Assembly (NCBI GenBank): GCA_017517685.1
Contig: JAFWYK010000003.1
Location: 68,860 to 132,859, forward strand
DNA from: Clostridia bacterium
GTDB taxonomy: Bacteria > Bacillota > Clostridia > TANB77 > CAG-508
Length of the DNA stretch: 64,000 nt
Direction: 5' to 3'
Part shown: piece after piece, positions 28,672 through 36,165 of the stretch
Layout of the letters: each line of letters opens with the position of its first letter
Numbering within the stretch: the stretch's first letter is position 1
Made by a program: the position numbers and the translations under genes
Notes under the pieces: model-generated
What the model was told of the DNA's origin: nothing
Seen by the model: only the letters and a program-made list of their open reading frames with translations
Database searches by the model: none

Positions 28672-29529
28672 CTAATAATCTACTCTTACATATAATTCAT
28701 AATAAGCTTGATCTTCTAAATATTCAACAAACTCATCAAATGAATCAAATTCATCTTGGTATCCAGAACGATATAAAACGCGAAGTTCATTATCTGTAAA
28801 ATAATCGTAGATATCAAAATCTTCTCTAAGTAATGTGTGTGTATTTTGGCTAGGAAGATTTTGAAATTCTTCTGGAGTTAGTTTGTTTTCGTAAGGTGTG
28901 ACTTCTACAGGTTTGTCCTCGTTAAGTAGTGGACCAGTAGATTTTCCTGACATATAATCATTAAATTTTCCAATTGTTGTAATAAATAAAACGCAATATA
29001 AAATAATTACTAATAATATTGCAAAAAATTTTTTATTTTTAGTAAGTGTATCAAAAATGTTCATCATTTTTGTTGGAATATCATTGTTAACCTTTTGATC
29101 TTTGTAATTAGAATTTGGTGTTTTAGAACGATGATAATCGGTATATCTTCTGTCAGCATGATAATTTGCAAAGTCGTTATAATTATATTCTCTACCAGGA
29201 TTAGCATTTCTATTTTTGTATTCGTCATAATAATTGCTAGGTGGTCTATCATATCTTGGTGGGGTATAGCTATAATTATCACTTGAAGAACTATAATAAC
29301 CTGAAATAGGAGTAGGAGGGAACATTTCTAAATCATATTGTTTTCTAGATTCTGGGTCAGATAAAACCTCATAAGCTCCATTAATTTCTTTTGCTTTCTT
29401 TTCGGCATATGTTTTATCACCTTGATAAAGATCAGGGTGATATTTTTTCATTAAGTTCTTGTAAGATATTTTAATTTCTTCTTGTGTAGCATCTTTTTTT
29501 ACACCAAGAATTTTGTAATAATTAGTCAT
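28672..29529 (-). CDS. Membrane-anchored J-domain protein with intact HPD
   Basis: 285 residues from ATG 29529 (GGAG 6 bases upstream); an upstream TTG at 29541 is unlikely. J domain at 1-65: '[20 protein letters not shown]', '[11 protein letters not shown]' with the HPD tripeptide that activates DnaK, and '[19 protein letters not shown]'. A Tyr/Asn/Arg-rich linker (about 70-155) leads to one membrane segment (about 170-190, [19 protein letters not shown]) and an extracytoplasmic C-terminus ending in '[20 protein letters not shown]'. It probably recruits DnaK to the membrane. The final motif is shared with the neighbouring gene upstream, showing a common origin. Confidence 0.85.
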
Positions 29530-29547
29530 AATAAACTCCAATTAAAT

Positions 29548-30372
29548 TTAATTGTTACTTGTATATAAATCATTAAAGTATTCTTTAAAATCAGCAAATG
29601 AATCAAATTCATCAGTATAATAATCTGTATAAACTTCACGAAGTTGAGCGTCTGTATAATAATCATTTATTTCATAATGTTTATAAGTACTTGTTGATGA
29701 AGAAGATGATGAACTTGGATTTATAGAATGAGGTCCATTTTTATAATCTAAGTTCTTGTCATAATATTGATCATAGGTGTTATATTCAGTGTCGAAAGTT
29801 AATGTAGACTCTTCATCAGTAGTAACTACATCTTTAACTAAATCACTTAAATCATTAAAAATTGATATTATTGGTGATAGGATTGAAAATGCAAAGAAAA
29901 GTATAATCATAGCGATTAAAAAATTTCTAAAAGCATTAGATACTTTTTTACCTGTAAAGTTTGAATAGTCTTGGATGTTTTCATCATCAAATATATCATC
30001 ACCATATGTCTTAATTGGATTTCTATATAAATCAAAGAATGATTTTTTAGAATTATATCGTTTCATAGCAATTTCAAAATCATGATGTTCGTGTGTACCA
30101 ATTGGGTCATCAACATACAATTCTTTATAAACATCTTTCTTTGAGACATGTGATTTTACATGTGTATCGTGTCTGTGATCAAAAGCTGCTCTTAATTGTG
30201 GATTAGATAAAATTTTGTAAGCTTTTTCTATATCTGCTAATCTTTTTACGGCATAGTTTTTATCACCATTATATTCTTTTAAATTATATTTGTTTTTGTA
30301 AAATAAATAAGATTTTTTAATTTCACTATCTGAAGCGTTATCTCTAACATTTAACATATCATATGGGTTCAT
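29548..30372 (-). CDS. Membrane-anchored J-like protein lacking HPD
   Basis: 274 residues. Residues 1-65 align with a J domain ('NPYDMLNVRDNASDSEIKKS', 'DIEKAYKILSNPQLRAAFDHR'), but where HPD should stand the sequence reads 'YKNKYNLKEYNG', so DnaK activation is not expected. A charged linker, one membrane segment (about 141-165, FLIAMIILFFAFSILSPII) and a Ser-rich extracytoplasmic part follow, ending with 'YYTDAQLREVYTDYYTDEFD', the same motif as in the downstream J protein 18 bases away. The two are a tandem duplication that diverged; this copy may act as a partner or competitor of the other. ATG 30372 has only a weak ribosome binding site. Confidence 0.8.
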   Translation of the reverse strand: MNPYDMLNVRDNASDSEIKKSYLFYKNKYNLKEYNGDKNYAVKRLADIEKAYKILSNPQLRAAFDHRHDTHVKSHVSKKDVYKELYVDDPIGTHEHHDFEIAMKRYNSKKSFFDLYRNPIKTYGDDIFDDENIQDYSNFTGKKVSNAFRNFLIAMIILFFAFSILSPIISIFNDLSDLVKDVVTTDEESTLTFDTEYNTYDQYYDKNLDYKNGPHSINPSSSSSSSTSTYKHYEINDYYTDAQLREVYTDYYTDEFDSFADFKEYFNDLYTSNN

Positions 30373-30496: not shown

Positions 30497-30525
30497 TTGA
30501 AAAATACACAGAAATGTTATAAAAT
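30497..30525 (+). promoter_or_regulatory. Promoter for the miaB-mTERF-like-mutS unit
   Basis: TTGAAA (30497-30502), a 17-base spacer and TAAAAT (30520-30525), 25 bases before the miaB start. Confidence 0.6.
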
Positions 30526-30550: not shown

Positions 30551-31921
30551 GTGCAAGAAAATCAAGAAAAATTTATGGAAAAAGTTTATAACTTAAATCA
30601 AGGTAAAAACTTAAAGTATACTATTTTAACAATGGGGTGCCAACTAAATGAAAACGATTCTGAAAAAATTGCCGGAATGTTAGAGAAAATGTCTTATTCA
30701 GAATGTAAAGATGTTAAAGAAGCAGATTTAGTTATTTTTAATACATGTTGTGTTAGAGAAAATGCTGAAGAAAGATTATTTGGAAAAATCGGTGAGATTA
30801 AAAAATTAAAAGAATCTAAAGATGTAATTCTTGCCATTGGTGGATGTATGATGCAAGAAGAAGTTATGGTAGAAAAAATCAAAAAAAGCTATCCATTTGT
30901 TAATGTTATTTTTGGTACACATACACTTCAAAATCTTCCAGAAAATATTTATAAAGCAATAATTGAAAATAGAAAAGTAAAAGATGTTATTGATATAGAC
31001 GGTGAAATATATGAAGGACTTCCAATTAAAAGAAATGATAACTTTAAAGCTTCAGTAACAATAATGTATGGATGTAATAATTTCTGTACATATTGTATAG
31101 TTCCTTATGTAAGAGGAAGAGAAAGAAGTCGTGAGCCTGAAATGATTTTAGAAGAAGTTAAAGGTTTAGCAAAAGAAGGTTATAAAGAAATTACGTTGCT
31201 TGGACAAAATGTTAATTCATATGTAGGAAATGATAAAATTAGAAATTTTGCAGATTTATTAAATGAAGTATGTAAAGTTGATGGAATAGAAAGAATTAAA
31301 TTTATCTCTCCACATCCAAAAGATTTCACTGATGATGTTATAGATGCAATTGCAAATAATGAAAAAATTTGCAGAATAATACATCTTCCACTTCAATCAG
31401 GAAATACAAAAGTATTAAAAGAGATGAATAGAAAATATACAAAAGAACAATATTTAGTTCTTGCTGAAAAAATGAAAGAAAGAATACCAGGTGTTGTATT
31501 TTCAACTGATATTATTGTTGGTTTCCCAGGTGAAACTGATGAAGAATTTGAAGATACACTTGATGTTGTTAGAAAAGTAAATTTTGAACAAATATTTATG
31601 TTTATTTATTCAAAAAGAGAAGGAACAGTCGCAGCAGCAAGAGAAGATCAAGTTCCAGAAGAACAAAAACATGTTAGATTCGATAAATTAAAAGATTTAT
31701 ATGAATCAAGAGTTGATGAGAATAATGATAAATATTTAAATACACATCAAAAATTATTAATTGAAGGTAAAAGTAAAAATAACGCAGAAATGTTAGAAGG
31801 TAGAACTGATACTAACAAAGTAGTTGTTTTTAAACCAAGAGAAGGAAATAAAATAGGAGATGTAGTTTTAGTAAATATTACTGAAACACATAAATGGTAT
31901 TTAAAAGGAGAAATAATATAG
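30551..31921 (+). CDS. miaB: tRNA-2-methylthio-N6-dimethylallyladenosine synthase MiaB
   Basis: 456 residues from GTG 30551 (TTGGAGG 9 bases upstream). Domains in order: the methylthiotransferase N-terminal domain with three Cys for the auxiliary 4Fe-4S cluster ('MGCQLNENDSEKI', 'NTCCVREN', 'GGCMMQEE'), the radical-SAM domain with CxxxCxxC ('YGCNNFCTYCIVPYVRGRE'), and a C-terminal TRAM domain (about 385-456). The 'CQLNENDSEK' and 'PYVRGRERSR' forms are those of MiaB rather than MtaB or RimO. It modifies A37 of tRNAs reading UNN codons. Head gene of a unit that ends with mutS. Confidence 0.95.
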   Translation: MQENQEKFMEKVYNLNQGKNLKYTILTMGCQLNENDSEKIAGMLEKMSYSECKDVKEADLVIFNTCCVRENAEERLFGKIGEIKKLKESKDVILAIGGCMMQEEVMVEKIKKSYPFVNVIFGTHTLQNLPENIYKAIIENRKVKDVIDIDGEIYEGLPIKRNDNFKASVTIMYGCNNFCTYCIVPYVRGRERSREPEMILEEVKGLAKEGYKEITLLGQNVNSYVGNDKIRNFADLLNEVCKVDGIERIKFISPHPKDFTDDVIDAIANNEKICRIIHLPLQSGNTKVLKEMNRKYTKEQYLVLAEKMKERIPGVVFSTDIIVGFPGETDEEFEDTLDVVRKVNFEQIFMFIYSKREGTVAAAREDQVPEEQKHVRFDKLKDLYESRVDENNDKYLNTHQKLLIEGKSKNNAEMLEGRTDTNKVVVFKPREGNKIGDVVLVNITETHKWYLKGEII

Positions 31922-31922
31922 T

Positions 31923-32969
31923 ATGGTAATGGTAACAGGCTTTTCTGATGAAGAAAAACAAATACTAGAAGAATACTTAGAGAAGAACTTATCAGTTAGA
32001 GATATTGAAAAAAGGCATAAAGGTTTTGGTAGAACAAAGATTAAAAATGTTATAGATCGTTATGCTGTATTAAATGAAGAAACTGCTTTAGCAGTAAATT
32101 TAAAAAGATTAGAACAAAAATATCATCGTGAAGTATCTGAAGATGATATCGATAGAGATGAACTAACTGATGAACAAGTTCAAAGTGCTTACTATCAAAT
32201 TATCCAAGGAGAAAAAACTTTAACATCTTTAGCAGGTGAACTTGGAAGAAATAGAGATACTTTAAAAGGTGCGATAGAAGAATATTTAGGAGATAGAGAA
32301 TCTATTGCTGAATTTAGAGATGTTTTAAAAAGAAATCAAAAAGTAAGTAAAGATAGACAACGTTTCTTTGAATTAACACCAGAAGAAAAGAAACAAGCTA
32401 TATTCTTGCGCTTAAACTATAGAAGACGTTTAGTAGGAAAAAATGAATATAGTGAAGAGCTATTAGAGAAAAAATATACAAGAGTTATGAATTATTTTCA
32501 TAAGAGAAATTCAAAGATGGATGATCAAGAAGCGATGCTTTCAGATGAAGACATTTTAAAAATGCTTTATGATTTTCCAACACTTTTAGCTACAAGTATA
32601 TCTTCAAAAGTAAGACCTGTTATTAAACTGTTAGATTATAAATATTTGAATTTTAAAGATGCATCTAAAGTGTTAAGAGAAAATCCTGCAATTTTAGGAA
32701 CATCTATGGAGAGAACATCTCTTCAAATGAATATATTAAAAGATACAGATACATTAAAATATGCTTTAGAAAAACCAAGGACATTTAGAACATCACCTGA
32801 AATGATGTATGCTCTAATTGGAGCTTGGCAAGCTGAAAAACATACAAAATCACCATTTATTACATTAAAGAAAGCAGAGGCTTTATATAAAAAGACTCCT
32901 GATGAACTTCAAGAAGCTTATGATGTGACAGAAGAATATGGCGATGATGAATATTTTGACGGAAGATAA
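31923..32969 (+). CDS. HTH-containing protein with mTERF-like helical repeats
   Basis: 348 residues; ATG one base after the miaB stop, AAAGGAG in the end of miaB. The N-terminal half is basic and has two helix-turn-helix-like segments: 'LSVRDIEKRHKGFGRTKIKN' (about 22-41) and 'KTLTSLAGELGRNRDTLKGA' (about 98-117). The C-terminal half has repeated units of the form helix, Pro, 'xxLL/IL', helix: 'DILKMLYDFPTLLATSISSK' and 'DASKVLRENPAILGTSMERT', then 'TLKYALEKPRTFRTSPEMM'. This spacing (near 35 residues, Pro before Leu) is the mTERF motif pattern known mainly from mitochondrial and plastid transcription regulators. Similarity is by eye only. The likely role is nucleic-acid binding. No defined bacterial function is known to me. 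Confidence 0.6.
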   Translation: MVMVTGFSDEEKQILEEYLEKNLSVRDIEKRHKGFGRTKIKNVIDRYAVLNEETALAVNLKRLEQKYHREVSEDDIDRDELTDEQVQSAYYQIIQGEKTLTSLAGELGRNRDTLKGAIEEYLGDRESIAEFRDVLKRNQKVSKDRQRFFELTPEEKKQAIFLRLNYRRRLVGKNEYSEELLEKKYTRVMNYFHKRNSKMDDQEAMLSDEDILKMLYDFPTLLATSISSKVRPVIKLLDYKYLNFKDASKVLRENPAILGTSMERTSLQMNILKDTDTLKYALEKPRTFRTSPEMMYALIGAWQAEKHTKSPFITLKKAEALYKKTPDELQEAYDVTEEYGDDEYFDGR

Positions 32970-32981
32970 GGAGAATAGATT

Positions 32982-33536
32982 ATGGCAGATGTTGAAAATA
33001 TGGGAATAGACGAATATTTAAAAAAGATTGGATTTGAAGCAGAAGAAATTGAGGAAATTTTAGAGTATGCAAATTCTGAAATAGATAGAAAAGTATTACA
33101 CGAAAAAGTTAAATTTTTAATTTCATTAGGTTTAGAAGCAAGACAAATTAGAATAGTACTTGAAGAAGATTTGCTTTTTGTTACTGAAGATTTTGAATTA
33201 ATCAAAGAAAATGCTGCAGTCCTTACTAAATATTTAGATCAAGAAGAGATAAAAAATACTTTAGAGACTACACCTGAAATACTAACTGTTAGAAAAGAAG
33301 AATTAGAAAGAAATATTAATCTTTTAAAACTTGTAATCAATGATGAAGAATCTTTGAAAATTGTTATTCAAGATAGAGGAGAAATATTAACATATAAACC
33401 AGACTATTTAAGTGATAAATTTACATTTTTTGTAAGCAAAGGATTAAAAGAAAATATCTTAAAAATTATTATTGAAAATGTTGAGGTATTTGAACTTGAT
33501 AATGATGAAATAGATGTTGAAGAATTAAAATATTAA
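32982..33536 (+). CDS. Second mTERF-like helical-repeat protein
   Basis: 184 residues, ATG behind AAGGAG, 12 bases after the preceding gene. All-helical, acidic, with consecutive units of about 33-36 residues: 'KVKFLISLGLEARQIRIVLE' then 'DLLFVTEDFELIKENAAVL', 'IKNTLETTPEILTVRKEELE' then 'NINLLKLVINDEESLKIVIQ', 'DRGEILTYKPDYLSDKFTF' then 'FVSKGLKENILKIIIENVEV'. The 'TPEILTVRKEELERNI' unit is a near-textbook mTERF motif. There is no HTH part, in contrast to its neighbour; the two probably work together. Placed directly before mutS (19 bases), so co-transcribed with miaB and mutS. Function unknown. Confidence 0.6.
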   Translation: MADVENMGIDEYLKKIGFEAEEIEEILEYANSEIDRKVLHEKVKFLISLGLEARQIRIVLEEDLLFVTEDFELIKENAAVLTKYLDQEEIKNTLETTPEILTVRKEELERNINLLKLVINDEESLKIVIQDRGEILTYKPDYLSDKFTFFVSKGLKENILKIIIENVEVFELDNDEIDVEELKY

Positions 33537-33555: not shown

Positions 33556-36165
33556 ATGGCTGAATTATCACCTATGATGCAAAGTTATCTAGAAACTAAA
33601 GAACAATATAAAGATTGCATTTTATTTTATCGTTTAGGCGATTTTTATGAAATGTTTTTTGATGACGCGATAGTAGCATCAAGAGAACTAGAAATTACAT
33701 TAACAGGTAGAGCATGTGGATTAGAAGAAAAAGCTCCAATGTGTGGAGTGCCACATCATGCTGCTGAAATATATATATCAAGACTAATTGCAAAAGGATA
33801 TAAAGTTGCTATTTGTGAACAACTTGAAGATCCAAAACAAGCAAAAGGAATTGTAAAAAGGGATGTTATAAGAGTAGTTACACCTGGTACTGTTATTGAA
33901 ACAAACATGTTAGAAGAAAAGAAGAATAACTACATAATGAGTATTGTTAAAAAAGGTATTTATTATGGAATTGGTGTTTGTGATATTAGTACTGGAGATT
34001 TTTATGCAACACAAATAAAATTATCAGAAAACAATTTTGAAAAATTATTAGATGAATATGCAAGATATTCACCAGCAGAGGTTGTAGTAAATCCTCAAAT
34101 GGGAAATTCTGAAAAAGAATTAAATATTTTAAGAGATAGAAATTCCACATTCGTTACTGTAAGAGAAGATGATATTTTTAATTCTGATAGTGATGTATTA
34201 TTAAAACTTTATACAATAGTTGATGGTTTTGATAAAGAAAAAGAATCATTTAATGATGAAGATTTAATTGCAAGTGCAATTAATGGTCTGTTAAATTATT
34301 TTACAGAAACACAAAAAGTTAAACTAGAACATTTAAATAAAATTAAAGTTTATGAAGTAAGAAAATATATGGCTCTAGACATTAATGCTAGAAGAAGTTT
34401 AGAGTTAACAGAAAGAATGAGAGATAAATCTAAAAAAGGTACATTAATTTGGGTTCTAGATAAAACTTCTACTTCAATGGGCGGAAGACTTTTAAGAAGA
34501 TGGATTAATGATCCACTTTTAGATGTTAATGAAATAACAAAAAGATTAGATTCTGTTAAAGAATTAAAAGATAATATGATGCTTCGTGGAGATATCATTG
34601 AGCTTTTAAGAAAAGTTTATGATATTGAAAGATTAGCGGGAAAAATTTCATATGGTAATGCTAATGCAAGAGATATGATTTCATTAAGAAATTCACTTTC
34701 TAATCTACCAGAATTAAAACAAGTGTTATCAATGACTACATCAAGTCTTTTAAAAGATTTACATCAAAGATTAGATGTGCTTAGTGATATTCATAAATTA
34801 ATTGATGATGCAATTGTTGAAGAACCACCAATTAGCGTTAAAGAAGGTGGAATAATTAAACCAGGCTTTAATGAAGAAATTGATTCTTATAGAAACGCAT
34901 CAACAGAAGGTAAAAACTGGATTATAGCATTAGAAGCTAAAGAAAAAGAATTAACAGGAATTAAAAATCTAAAAGTTGGTTATACAAGAGTATTTGGATA
35001 TTATATTGAAATAACTAAATCCTTCTTAAATCAAGTTCCTGATAGATATGTTAGAAAACAAACTTTAACAGGTGGAGAAAGATTTATAACTGAAGAGTTA
35101 AAAGAAATTGAAAATAAGATTTTAGGCTCAGAAGAAAAAGTTATTAATCTTGAATATGAAGAATTTACTAAAATTAGAAATGAAATTGCAAGAAATATTG
35201 AAAGATTACAAACAACAGCAAATAGTATTGCAAATGTCGATGTATTAACAAGTTTAGCAGTTGTTGCTGATAATAATAACTATGTGTATCCTGAAGTAGA
35301 TGATGGAGATATATTAGATATTAAAGGTGGACGTCATCCAGTTATTGAAAAAATGATAGATGATGGTACATTTGTTGATAATGATACATATTTAGATTGC
35401 GAGTCAACAAGAGTTGCGATTATTACAGGCCCTAATATGGCTGGTAAATCTACTTATATGAGACAAGTTGCTATAATTACATTAATGGCACAAATAGGAA
35501 GTTTTGTTCCGGCAACTGAAGCAAGAATTGGTATTGTTGATAAAATCTTTACAAGAGTTGGAGCTTCAGATGATTTAAGTAGTGGACAAAGTACTTTTAT
35601 GGTTGAAATGAATGAAGTTGCAAACATCTTAAAAGATGCAACACCAAAAAGTTTAGTAATATTAGATGAAATTGGTAGAGGTACATCAACATATGATGGA
35701 TTGTCTATTGCATGGGCTGTTGCAGATTATATAGCTGATAAAGAAAAAATAGGTTGTAAGACATTATTTGCAACACATTATCATGAACTTTTAGAGCTTG
35801 AAGAAAAGATAGATGGAATCAAAAATTTTTCAGTAGCAGTTAAGGAAAAAGGTGAAGATGTAATCTTCCTAAGAAAAATCGTTGAAGGTGGTACTGATGA
35901 AAGTTATGGTATCCATGTTGCAAAACTTGCAGGAGTTCCAAGAACTGTAGTTGCAAAAGCAACAAAAATATTACGTTCTTTAGAAAGAGGCGGAATAAAA
36001 GTAAAAGAAGAGAAAGAATCTAAAAAACAAGTTGAAGGACAATTTGACTTATTTAATATGCGTTTAGCGGATATTTCTCATGAACTAGATAAAATTAATG
36101 TAAATGAGCTTACACCAATTGAAGCATTAAATACATTAGTAAGATTAAAAGAAAGTTTAAAATAA
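33556..36165 (+). CDS. mutS: DNA mismatch repair protein MutS
   Basis: 869 residues, the normal MutS1 length. Mismatch-recognition motif in 'FYRLGDFYEMFFDDA' (Phe-x-Glu) near residue 35, connector and core domains with 'LDINARRSLELTE', then the ATPase: Walker A 'GPNMAGKSTYMRQV' near 625, 'GASDDLSSGQSTFMVEM' signature, Walker B 'LVILDEIGRGTSTYDG', and the 'TLFATHYHEL' His switch. A C-terminal clamp region ends in 'NELTPIEALNTLVRLKE'. It recognises mispairs and loads the repair machinery. No mutL lies in the window; here it is preceded by two mTERF-like genes. GGAAG is the ribosome binding site. A terminator follows. Confidence 0.97.
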   Translation: MAELSPMMQSYLETKEQYKDCILFYRLGDFYEMFFDDAIVASRELEITLTGRACGLEEKAPMCGVPHHAAEIYISRLIAKGYKVAICEQLEDPKQAKGIVKRDVIRVVTPGTVIETNMLEEKKNNYIMSIVKKGIYYGIGVCDISTGDFYATQIKLSENNFEKLLDEYARYSPAEVVVNPQMGNSEKELNILRDRNSTFVTVREDDIFNSDSDVLLKLYTIVDGFDKEKESFNDEDLIASAINGLLNYFTETQKVKLEHLNKIKVYEVRKYMALDINARRSLELTERMRDKSKKGTLIWVLDKTSTSMGGRLLRRWINDPLLDVNEITKRLDSVKELKDNMMLRGDIIELLRKVYDIERLAGKISYGNANARDMISLRNSLSNLPELKQVLSMTTSSLLKDLHQRLDVLSDIHKLIDDAIVEEPPISVKEGGIIKPGFNEEIDSYRNASTEGKNWIIALEAKEKELTGIKNLKVGYTRVFGYYIEITKSFLNQVPDRYVRKQTLTGGERFITEELKEIENKILGSEEKVINLEYEEFTKIRNEIARNIERLQTTANSIANVDVLTSLAVVADNNNYVYPEVDDGDILDIKGGRHPVIEKMIDDGTFVDNDTYLDCESTRVAIITGPNMAGKSTYMRQVAIITLMAQIGSFVPATEARIGIVDKIFTRVGASDDLSSGQSTFMVEMNEVANILKDATPKSLVILDEIGRGTSTYDGLSIAWAVADYIADKEKIGCKTLFATHYHELLELEEKIDGIKNFSVAVKEKGEDVIFLRKIVEGGTDESYGIHVAKLAGVPRTVVAKATKILRSLERGGIKVKEEKESKKQVEGQFDLFNMRLADISHELDKINVNELTPIEALNTLVRLKESLK

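Follow-up and report, generated by a model that had tools for sequence, protein, structure and literature searches.

Two adjacent mTERF-family proteins encoded between miaB and mutS in a Clostridia genome

mTERF proteins were regarded as an invention of eukaryotic organelles (mitochondria and chloroplasts) until pTERF was described in 2024. In a 64,000-nt stretch of DNA from an uncultured gut Clostridia bacterium (hereafter the window), two adjacent open reading frames, X and Y, lie between miaB and mutS and had been predicted, from the letters of the DNA, to encode mTERF-like proteins. Do these bacterial proteins belong to the mTERF family, and what might such a pair do between a gene for tRNA modification and one for mismatch repair?

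Locus, architecture and family membership

The locus comprises the following features, in coordinates of the window.

30497–30525, + strand: operon promoter (TTGAAA-17-TAAAAT) upstream of miaB, the best promoter-like site on the + strand
30551–31921, + strand: miaB, tRNA methylthiotransferase, first gene of the operon (TIGR01574, E = 5.5e-155)
31923–32969, + strand: ORF X, 348 aa, two helix-turn-helix (HTH) modules, mTERF motifs and a C-terminal cap (PF02536, AF2, structural matches)
31947–32066, + strand: HTH module 1 of X, residues 9–48 (AF2 helices 9–19, 25–31 and 37–48)
32169–32288, + strand: HTH module 2 of X, residues 83–122 (AF2 helices 83–94, 100–106 and 111–122)
32544–32837, + strand: mTERF motifs of X, residues 208–305 (AF2 helix triplets 208–241, 244–274 and 278–305)
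32982–33536, + strand: ORF Y, 184 aa, about four mTERF motifs only, acidic (PF02536, AF2, charge)
33556–36165, + strand: mutS, mismatch repair ATPase, 19 bases 3′ of Y (NF003810, 1093 bits)

The intergenic gaps from miaB through X and Y to mutS are 1, 12 and 19 bases, and purine-rich ribosome-binding sites, read directly in the sequence, lie 5′ of each start (AAAGGAG, AAGGAG and AAGGAAG). No + strand terminator-like site was found within miaB-X-Y-mutS, and a promoter block, TTGAAA...TATAAAAT, is recognizable before miaB in 18 of 19 aligned genomes, with or without X/Y. These features make it most likely that X and Y are expressed from a single miaB-X-Y-mutS transcript. The original prediction had two adjacent mTERF-like proteins between miaB and mutS, co-transcribed with them; both open reading frames are where it placed them, packed into the miaB–mutS transcription unit. 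In the alignment of these 19 genomes, the region 5′ of miaB shows no conserved operator specific to X/Y. We rejected autoregulation through an operator shared among X/Y carriers, because the one promoter occurs in carriers and non-carriers alike and is accompanied by no further conserved block. Divergently from miaB, the window encodes two DnaJ-domain proteins with C-terminal extensions (28672–30372), and several relatives likewise seem to have DnaJ-like genes in divergent orientation upstream of miaB.

X and Y are mTERF-family proteins. First, both lie above the curated cut-off of the Pfam mTERF profile (PF02536, 23.1 bits): X scores 26 bits (E = 5.5e-6) over residues 207–275 and Y 34.1 bits (E = 1.8e-8), and at E ≤ 0.01 the profile matches 16 of 16 Y orthologs and 7 of 10 X orthologs. 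When a profile of the 16 Y orthologs was compared with all PDB sequences, the first 12 matches were all mTERF chains, led by mS93 (E = 1.6e-7) and MTERF1 (E = 3.7e-7) and reaching down to MTERF4, with exclusively mTERFs to E = 0.0017. Second, the AF2 models, confident for Y (pLDDT 92.6, pTM 0.86) and fair for X (pLDDT 84.8, pTM 0.57), each contain a superhelix of three-helix motifs of about 30–36 residues, and their best structural matches are human MTERF1, MTERF3 and MTERF4. For the Y model, mTERF or mitoribosomal mTERF-like chains fill Foldseek ranks 1–18 and VIA-align ranks 1–20 (MTERF1: Z = 14.5, 3.4 Å over 176 residues); for the X model, VIA-align ranks 1–18 are mTERFs over residues about 150–345, with Z up to 11.5.

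This significance comes from profiles and folds, not from the local Pro/Leu motif. The peptides quoted in the original prediction are present, NPAILGTS at residues 254–261 of X and TPEILTVRKEEL at residues 97–108 of Y, and Y carries heptad motif residues P98, L101, L108 and L115, of which P98 and L115 are nearly invariant. A perfect P-x2-h-x6-h-x6-h motif occurs once in Y (shuffle P = 0.10) and not at all in X, which keeps the P and L in part only; we discarded the plain motif as mTERF evidence because it is not above shuffled chance. That result, the shortness and degeneracy of the mTERF motifs and the appearance of TALE chains lower in the Y fold list might suggest helical repeats of a generic kind (TPR-, HEAT- or TALE-like) whose mTERF label reflects a chance resemblance. 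We consider this highly improbable and reject it, as it is contradicted by the curated Pfam threshold, which both proteins exceed, by the mTERF-only PDB profile matches and by the fold comparison, in which the TALE repeats that come next after the mTERFs reach a Z of 6.2 and below, against 14.5 for Y with MTERF1. TALE and BurrH proteins do share with X and Y a helical-repeat superhelix able to follow DNA (VIA-align Z = 4.1–6.2), but they form a different repeat family of two-helix units with an RVD code and score far below the mTERFs. Profile search and structure prediction thus both bear out the mTERF-like nature that had been proposed for X and Y, with no other helical fold ranking best.

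Organellar MTERF1, MTERF3 and MTERF4 are of the same PF02536 family and have the same three-helix superhelical fold. X and Y nevertheless differ from organellar mTERFs, which are defined by a eukaryotic nuclear gene and organelle targeting, in being encoded in an operon of a bacterial chromosome, as recovered in many independent assemblies; in addition, Y is acidic and short, and X is fused to HTH modules. The mTERF region of X consists of two clear motifs and a third, degenerate one within the C-terminal cap. Residues 1–55 structurally match ArdK (Z = 6.1), KorA (Z = 6.0) and sigma region 4 (Z = 5.9), HTH proteins that come after the 18 mTERF rows in VIA-align. A weak Pfam match to HTH_28 covers residues 93–122, and HTH profiles match up to 5 of 10 X orthologs. 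The two helix-turn-helix-like segments originally noticed in X are thus borne out by AF2 three-helix modules and HTH matches. With HTH matches over residues 1–55 and mTERF matches over the C-terminal part, the architecture of X reads as HTH–HTH–helical linker–mTERF.

Distribution among relatives and selection

The locus is readable in 48 of 53 genomes of the window's genus. The miaB–mutS interval of these 48 holds X and Y in 11, Y only in 8, a tandem-HTH protein only in 8 and nothing in 21; X without Y is found in none (11 with both, 8 with Y only). In a tree built on MiaB and MutS from 52 genomes (47 belonging to the window's genus and 5 to another), the locus changes state at least 17 times, which marks the X/Y unit as accessory and repeatedly lost or moved. 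The order miaB-X-Y-mutS, whose conservation had been left to be checked, is found in the 11 genomes of the genus and in one of another genus of the same family (G056; X-like, E = 4e-16; Y-like, E = 3e-24), and three genomes of that other genus (G065, G228 and G267) encode HTH–mTERF proteins without Y. In most other genera, miaB and mutS are adjacent with nothing between them. More broadly, 28 of the order's 287 genomes have PF02536 matches above the cut-off, against only 5 of 341 in a sample of the class and 2 of 348 in a sample of the phylum; the window's genome is part of both samples, and the class sample takes in further members of the order. None of 14 control genomes has a match. The named Y-bearing records are metagenome-assembled genomes (MAGs) of uncultured Clostridium or Clostridia, by title several from rabbit ('Lapin') and one from the mouse iMGMC set.

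We rejected a core role in mismatch repair or as an accessory of MiaB, as the interval is empty in 21 of the 48 genomes of the genus and in most other genera. The patchy presence of X/Y even within the genus points instead to an accessory unit. The functional link to tRNA modification and mismatch repair drawn in the original prediction is accordingly doubtful, miaB and mutS adjoining without X or Y in most relatives.

Other proteins occupy the same interval. In twelve loci from other species and genera (L070, L074, L081, L096, L102, L104, L108, L111, L162, L196, L199 and L201), it encodes proteins of two or more HTH modules. Several are matched weakly but significantly by a profile of the N-terminal HTH part of X (best E = 3.3e-9, in a small database). 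Unlike X, they have no mTERF part and consist of repeated HTH modules over about 157–302 aa. A short mTERF gene and a weakly mTERF-like gene of 413 aa stand immediately 5′ of mutL (L138:6187-9750) in a different family of the order, so that a mismatch-repair neighbourhood recurs.

Both X and Y are real, selected genes. In five close pairs, dN/dS is 0.05–0.27 for Y, 0.26–0.59 for X and 0.03–0.09 for mutS: Y is under strong purifying selection and is the conserved member, and X is the fast-evolving one, across all of its domains. In one of the close pairs, dS is higher in X and Y than in mutS, a hint of exchange. In genome G001 (L009:512-1492), X has an in-frame stop near its N terminus and Y is intact and 97% identical to that of a near relative, which fits decay of X before Y.

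A possible, if doubtful, alternative treats the interval as prone to insertion and X/Y as its cargo: accessory genes, perhaps selfish or related to defence, placed there for housekeeping expression and having no link to translation or repair. An interval that is empty in most genomes and otherwise holds X and Y, Y, X or tandem-HTH proteins of different lengths, the frequent state changes across the 52 genomes, the fast evolution of X and the raised dS in one pair would all fit. Against it, the interval contains no transposase or integrase, Y is under strong purifying selection, and neither protein matches PADLOC defence families, by which we dismissed a known defence system. Searches for Y or an array of mTERF repeats in phages, for an array in plasmids and for either in viral contigs returned no matches, and the Y model has no convincing fold match in BFVD; a phage, plasmid or virus origin was rejected on these null results.

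Tandem mTERF arrays and short acidic mTERFs

The original prediction held that bacterial mTERFs are scarcely described. This was nearly right, except that prokaryotic tandem mTERF-like repeat proteins, pTERFs, were reported by Hu et al. in 2024 (PMC11417379), so that the kind is already known. According to the pTERF section of that paper, a pTERF is a tandem array of 3–11 similar repeat units, arrays of six or more units were screened, pTERF1/2 bind double-stranded DNA sequence-specifically (Kd of 1.87 nM for a pTERF array), and pTERF1 is without the conserved proline and leucine heptads (PMC11417379). HTH fusions, an acidic short mTERF partner and a conserved locus go unmentioned in the same section. 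Relative to the pTERF description there, the HTH fusion, the acidic partner and the miaB–mutS locus are new.

Like X and Y, the pTERFs represent bacterial mTERF motifs in MAGs of gut Clostridia or Bacillota. They are unlike them in tandem identity: X has about three degenerate motifs and two HTH modules, and Y about four dissimilar motifs. Unlike pTERF1, compared here by its published description, Y and the arrays that we found in this order keep the proline/leucine heptads.

These arrays are long proteins of 35-residue mTERF repeats elsewhere in the order (for example, L119, L123 and L130), with Pro in 44 of 50 units and Pro plus hydrophobic heptads kept in most copies. X is homologous to their C-terminal part, the array cap aligning with the X C terminus at E = 5.7e-10 over 140 columns (hhalign). 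Beside the array, 13 of the 15 array loci have a short mTERF gene related to Y (profile–profile E = 3.3e-9), which in one case is fused to a third gene; its product is acidic in nearly all loci. The cross comparisons, X with the short protein and Y with the array, are much weaker. From these homologies, X/Y looks like a diverged, HTH-equipped array/short pair.

Several features of the array loci deserve record. Clusters such as L119:8502-12280, L123:8756-11978, L130:2586-5989 and L127:2583-4414 combine array genes, the short acidic mTERF gene and, as a third component, a gene for a conserved basic protein, about 150 aa long ('..YSEVLEILK..'), that has no Pfam match. Array units vary most at positions 14, 15, 17 and 20, which flank the conserved Pro and could be specificity residues. 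Beside rpoB/rpoC and the conserved basic gene, L136:8334-10982 encodes an 883-aa protein of near-identical 'GKAKEIKEIIKVLEEEGIGKEIIKTNGDILA' repeats, with mTERF-like spacing and without the proline, perhaps nearer the published pTERF1 type. In L188:6966-10757 and L189:5023-7000, genes for X-like HTH–mTERF proteins of about 500–545 aa have, directly 3′, the conserved basic gene known from the array clusters, an arrangement that bridges the two locus types.

Possible functions of X and Y

We propose, with a probability of roughly 0.45, that X is a DNA-binding regulator and Y its acidic, non-DNA-binding mTERF partner. Both would be translated from a transcript shared with miaB and mutS. X would bind duplex DNA at specific sites through its two HTH modules and short mTERF superhelix, as pTERFs do, and its targets need not be miaB or mutS. 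Y would not itself bind DNA, would associate with X, and would act as a co-regulator of X or a check on it. A precedent is MTERF4, which works through a protein partner.

Charge bears on both halves of this proposal. The window's Y has a net charge of −23 and a pI of 4.4, and all 16 orthologs lie between −11 and −32, with pI values of 4.2–4.8. Such acidity makes direct nucleic-acid binding by Y unlikely and a protein partner more likely; the 'DNA- or RNA-binding pair' of the original prediction therefore does not fit Y. X is basic in 8 of 10 orthologs, and the two HTH modules together with this charge suggest that X is a DNA binder. X always occurs with Y in the window's genus and the array/short arrangement is parallel, making X the obvious candidate partner. 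Some observations go against the proposal: in the window itself, X carries a slight negative charge (net −4), its mTERF motifs, about three, fall short of the six or more units of the arrays screened in the 2024 study, and a conserved operator specific to X/Y is absent from the region 5′ of miaB. X without Y in the three genomes of the other genus indicates that Y is not always needed. In the 8 genomes of the window's genus in which Y lacks X, Y acts alone, works with another partner or is decaying. The dependence of X and Y on each other is thus not absolute.

Could the target of Y, and perhaps of X, instead be RNA or the ribosome, as for MTERF3, MTERF4 and the mitoribosomal mTERF-like proteins? 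Co-transcription with miaB would fit, the best sequence match of Y is the mitoribosomal mS93, and MTERF3 and MTERF4 rank high; as MTERF4 uses a protein partner, even an acidic mTERF is conceivable in this setting. We nonetheless judge such a role unlikely, because every Y ortholog is strongly negative, the HTH modules of X point to DNA, and a patchy presence in the genus ill suits a ribosome assembly factor.

A narrower possibility is that Y is an antagonist, a DNA mimic or anti-factor that keeps X off DNA in the manner of an antitoxin. An acidic mTERF fold beside a putatively DNA-binding mTERF, repeated in the array loci, and the constant company of Y wherever X occurs in the window's genus are what it would lead one to expect. 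X-only genomes exist in the other genus (g12), however, Y persists without X in 8 genomes and no toxicity is known, and we regard this function as quite improbable.

Extending the proposal of a regulator X with an acidic partner Y to the array loci, we tentatively suggest that bacterial mTERFs may be a two-part system, in which a DNA-binding member (a tandem array or the HTH-fused X) is accompanied by an acidic short mTERF that sets its activity. Were this so, one undescribed regulatory module would exist in two forms, X/Y in the miaB–mutS operon and the array/short loci elsewhere in the order, and the short protein could be the inbuilt antagonist of a DNA-binding scaffold that is programmable.

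For the family, the presence in conserved bacterial operons of mTERFs that are fused to HTH modules, or acidic and free-standing, widens the bacterial branch and gives it a repeated two-gene form, and X/Y, sitting in a defined locus, make mTERF function testable there. The sequence match of Y to organellar mTERFs (E = 1.6e-7), together with its kept Pro/Leu heptads, may bear on the origin of the organellar family. The recurring acidic partner may also matter for the engineering of pTERF arrays as DNA-binding tools.
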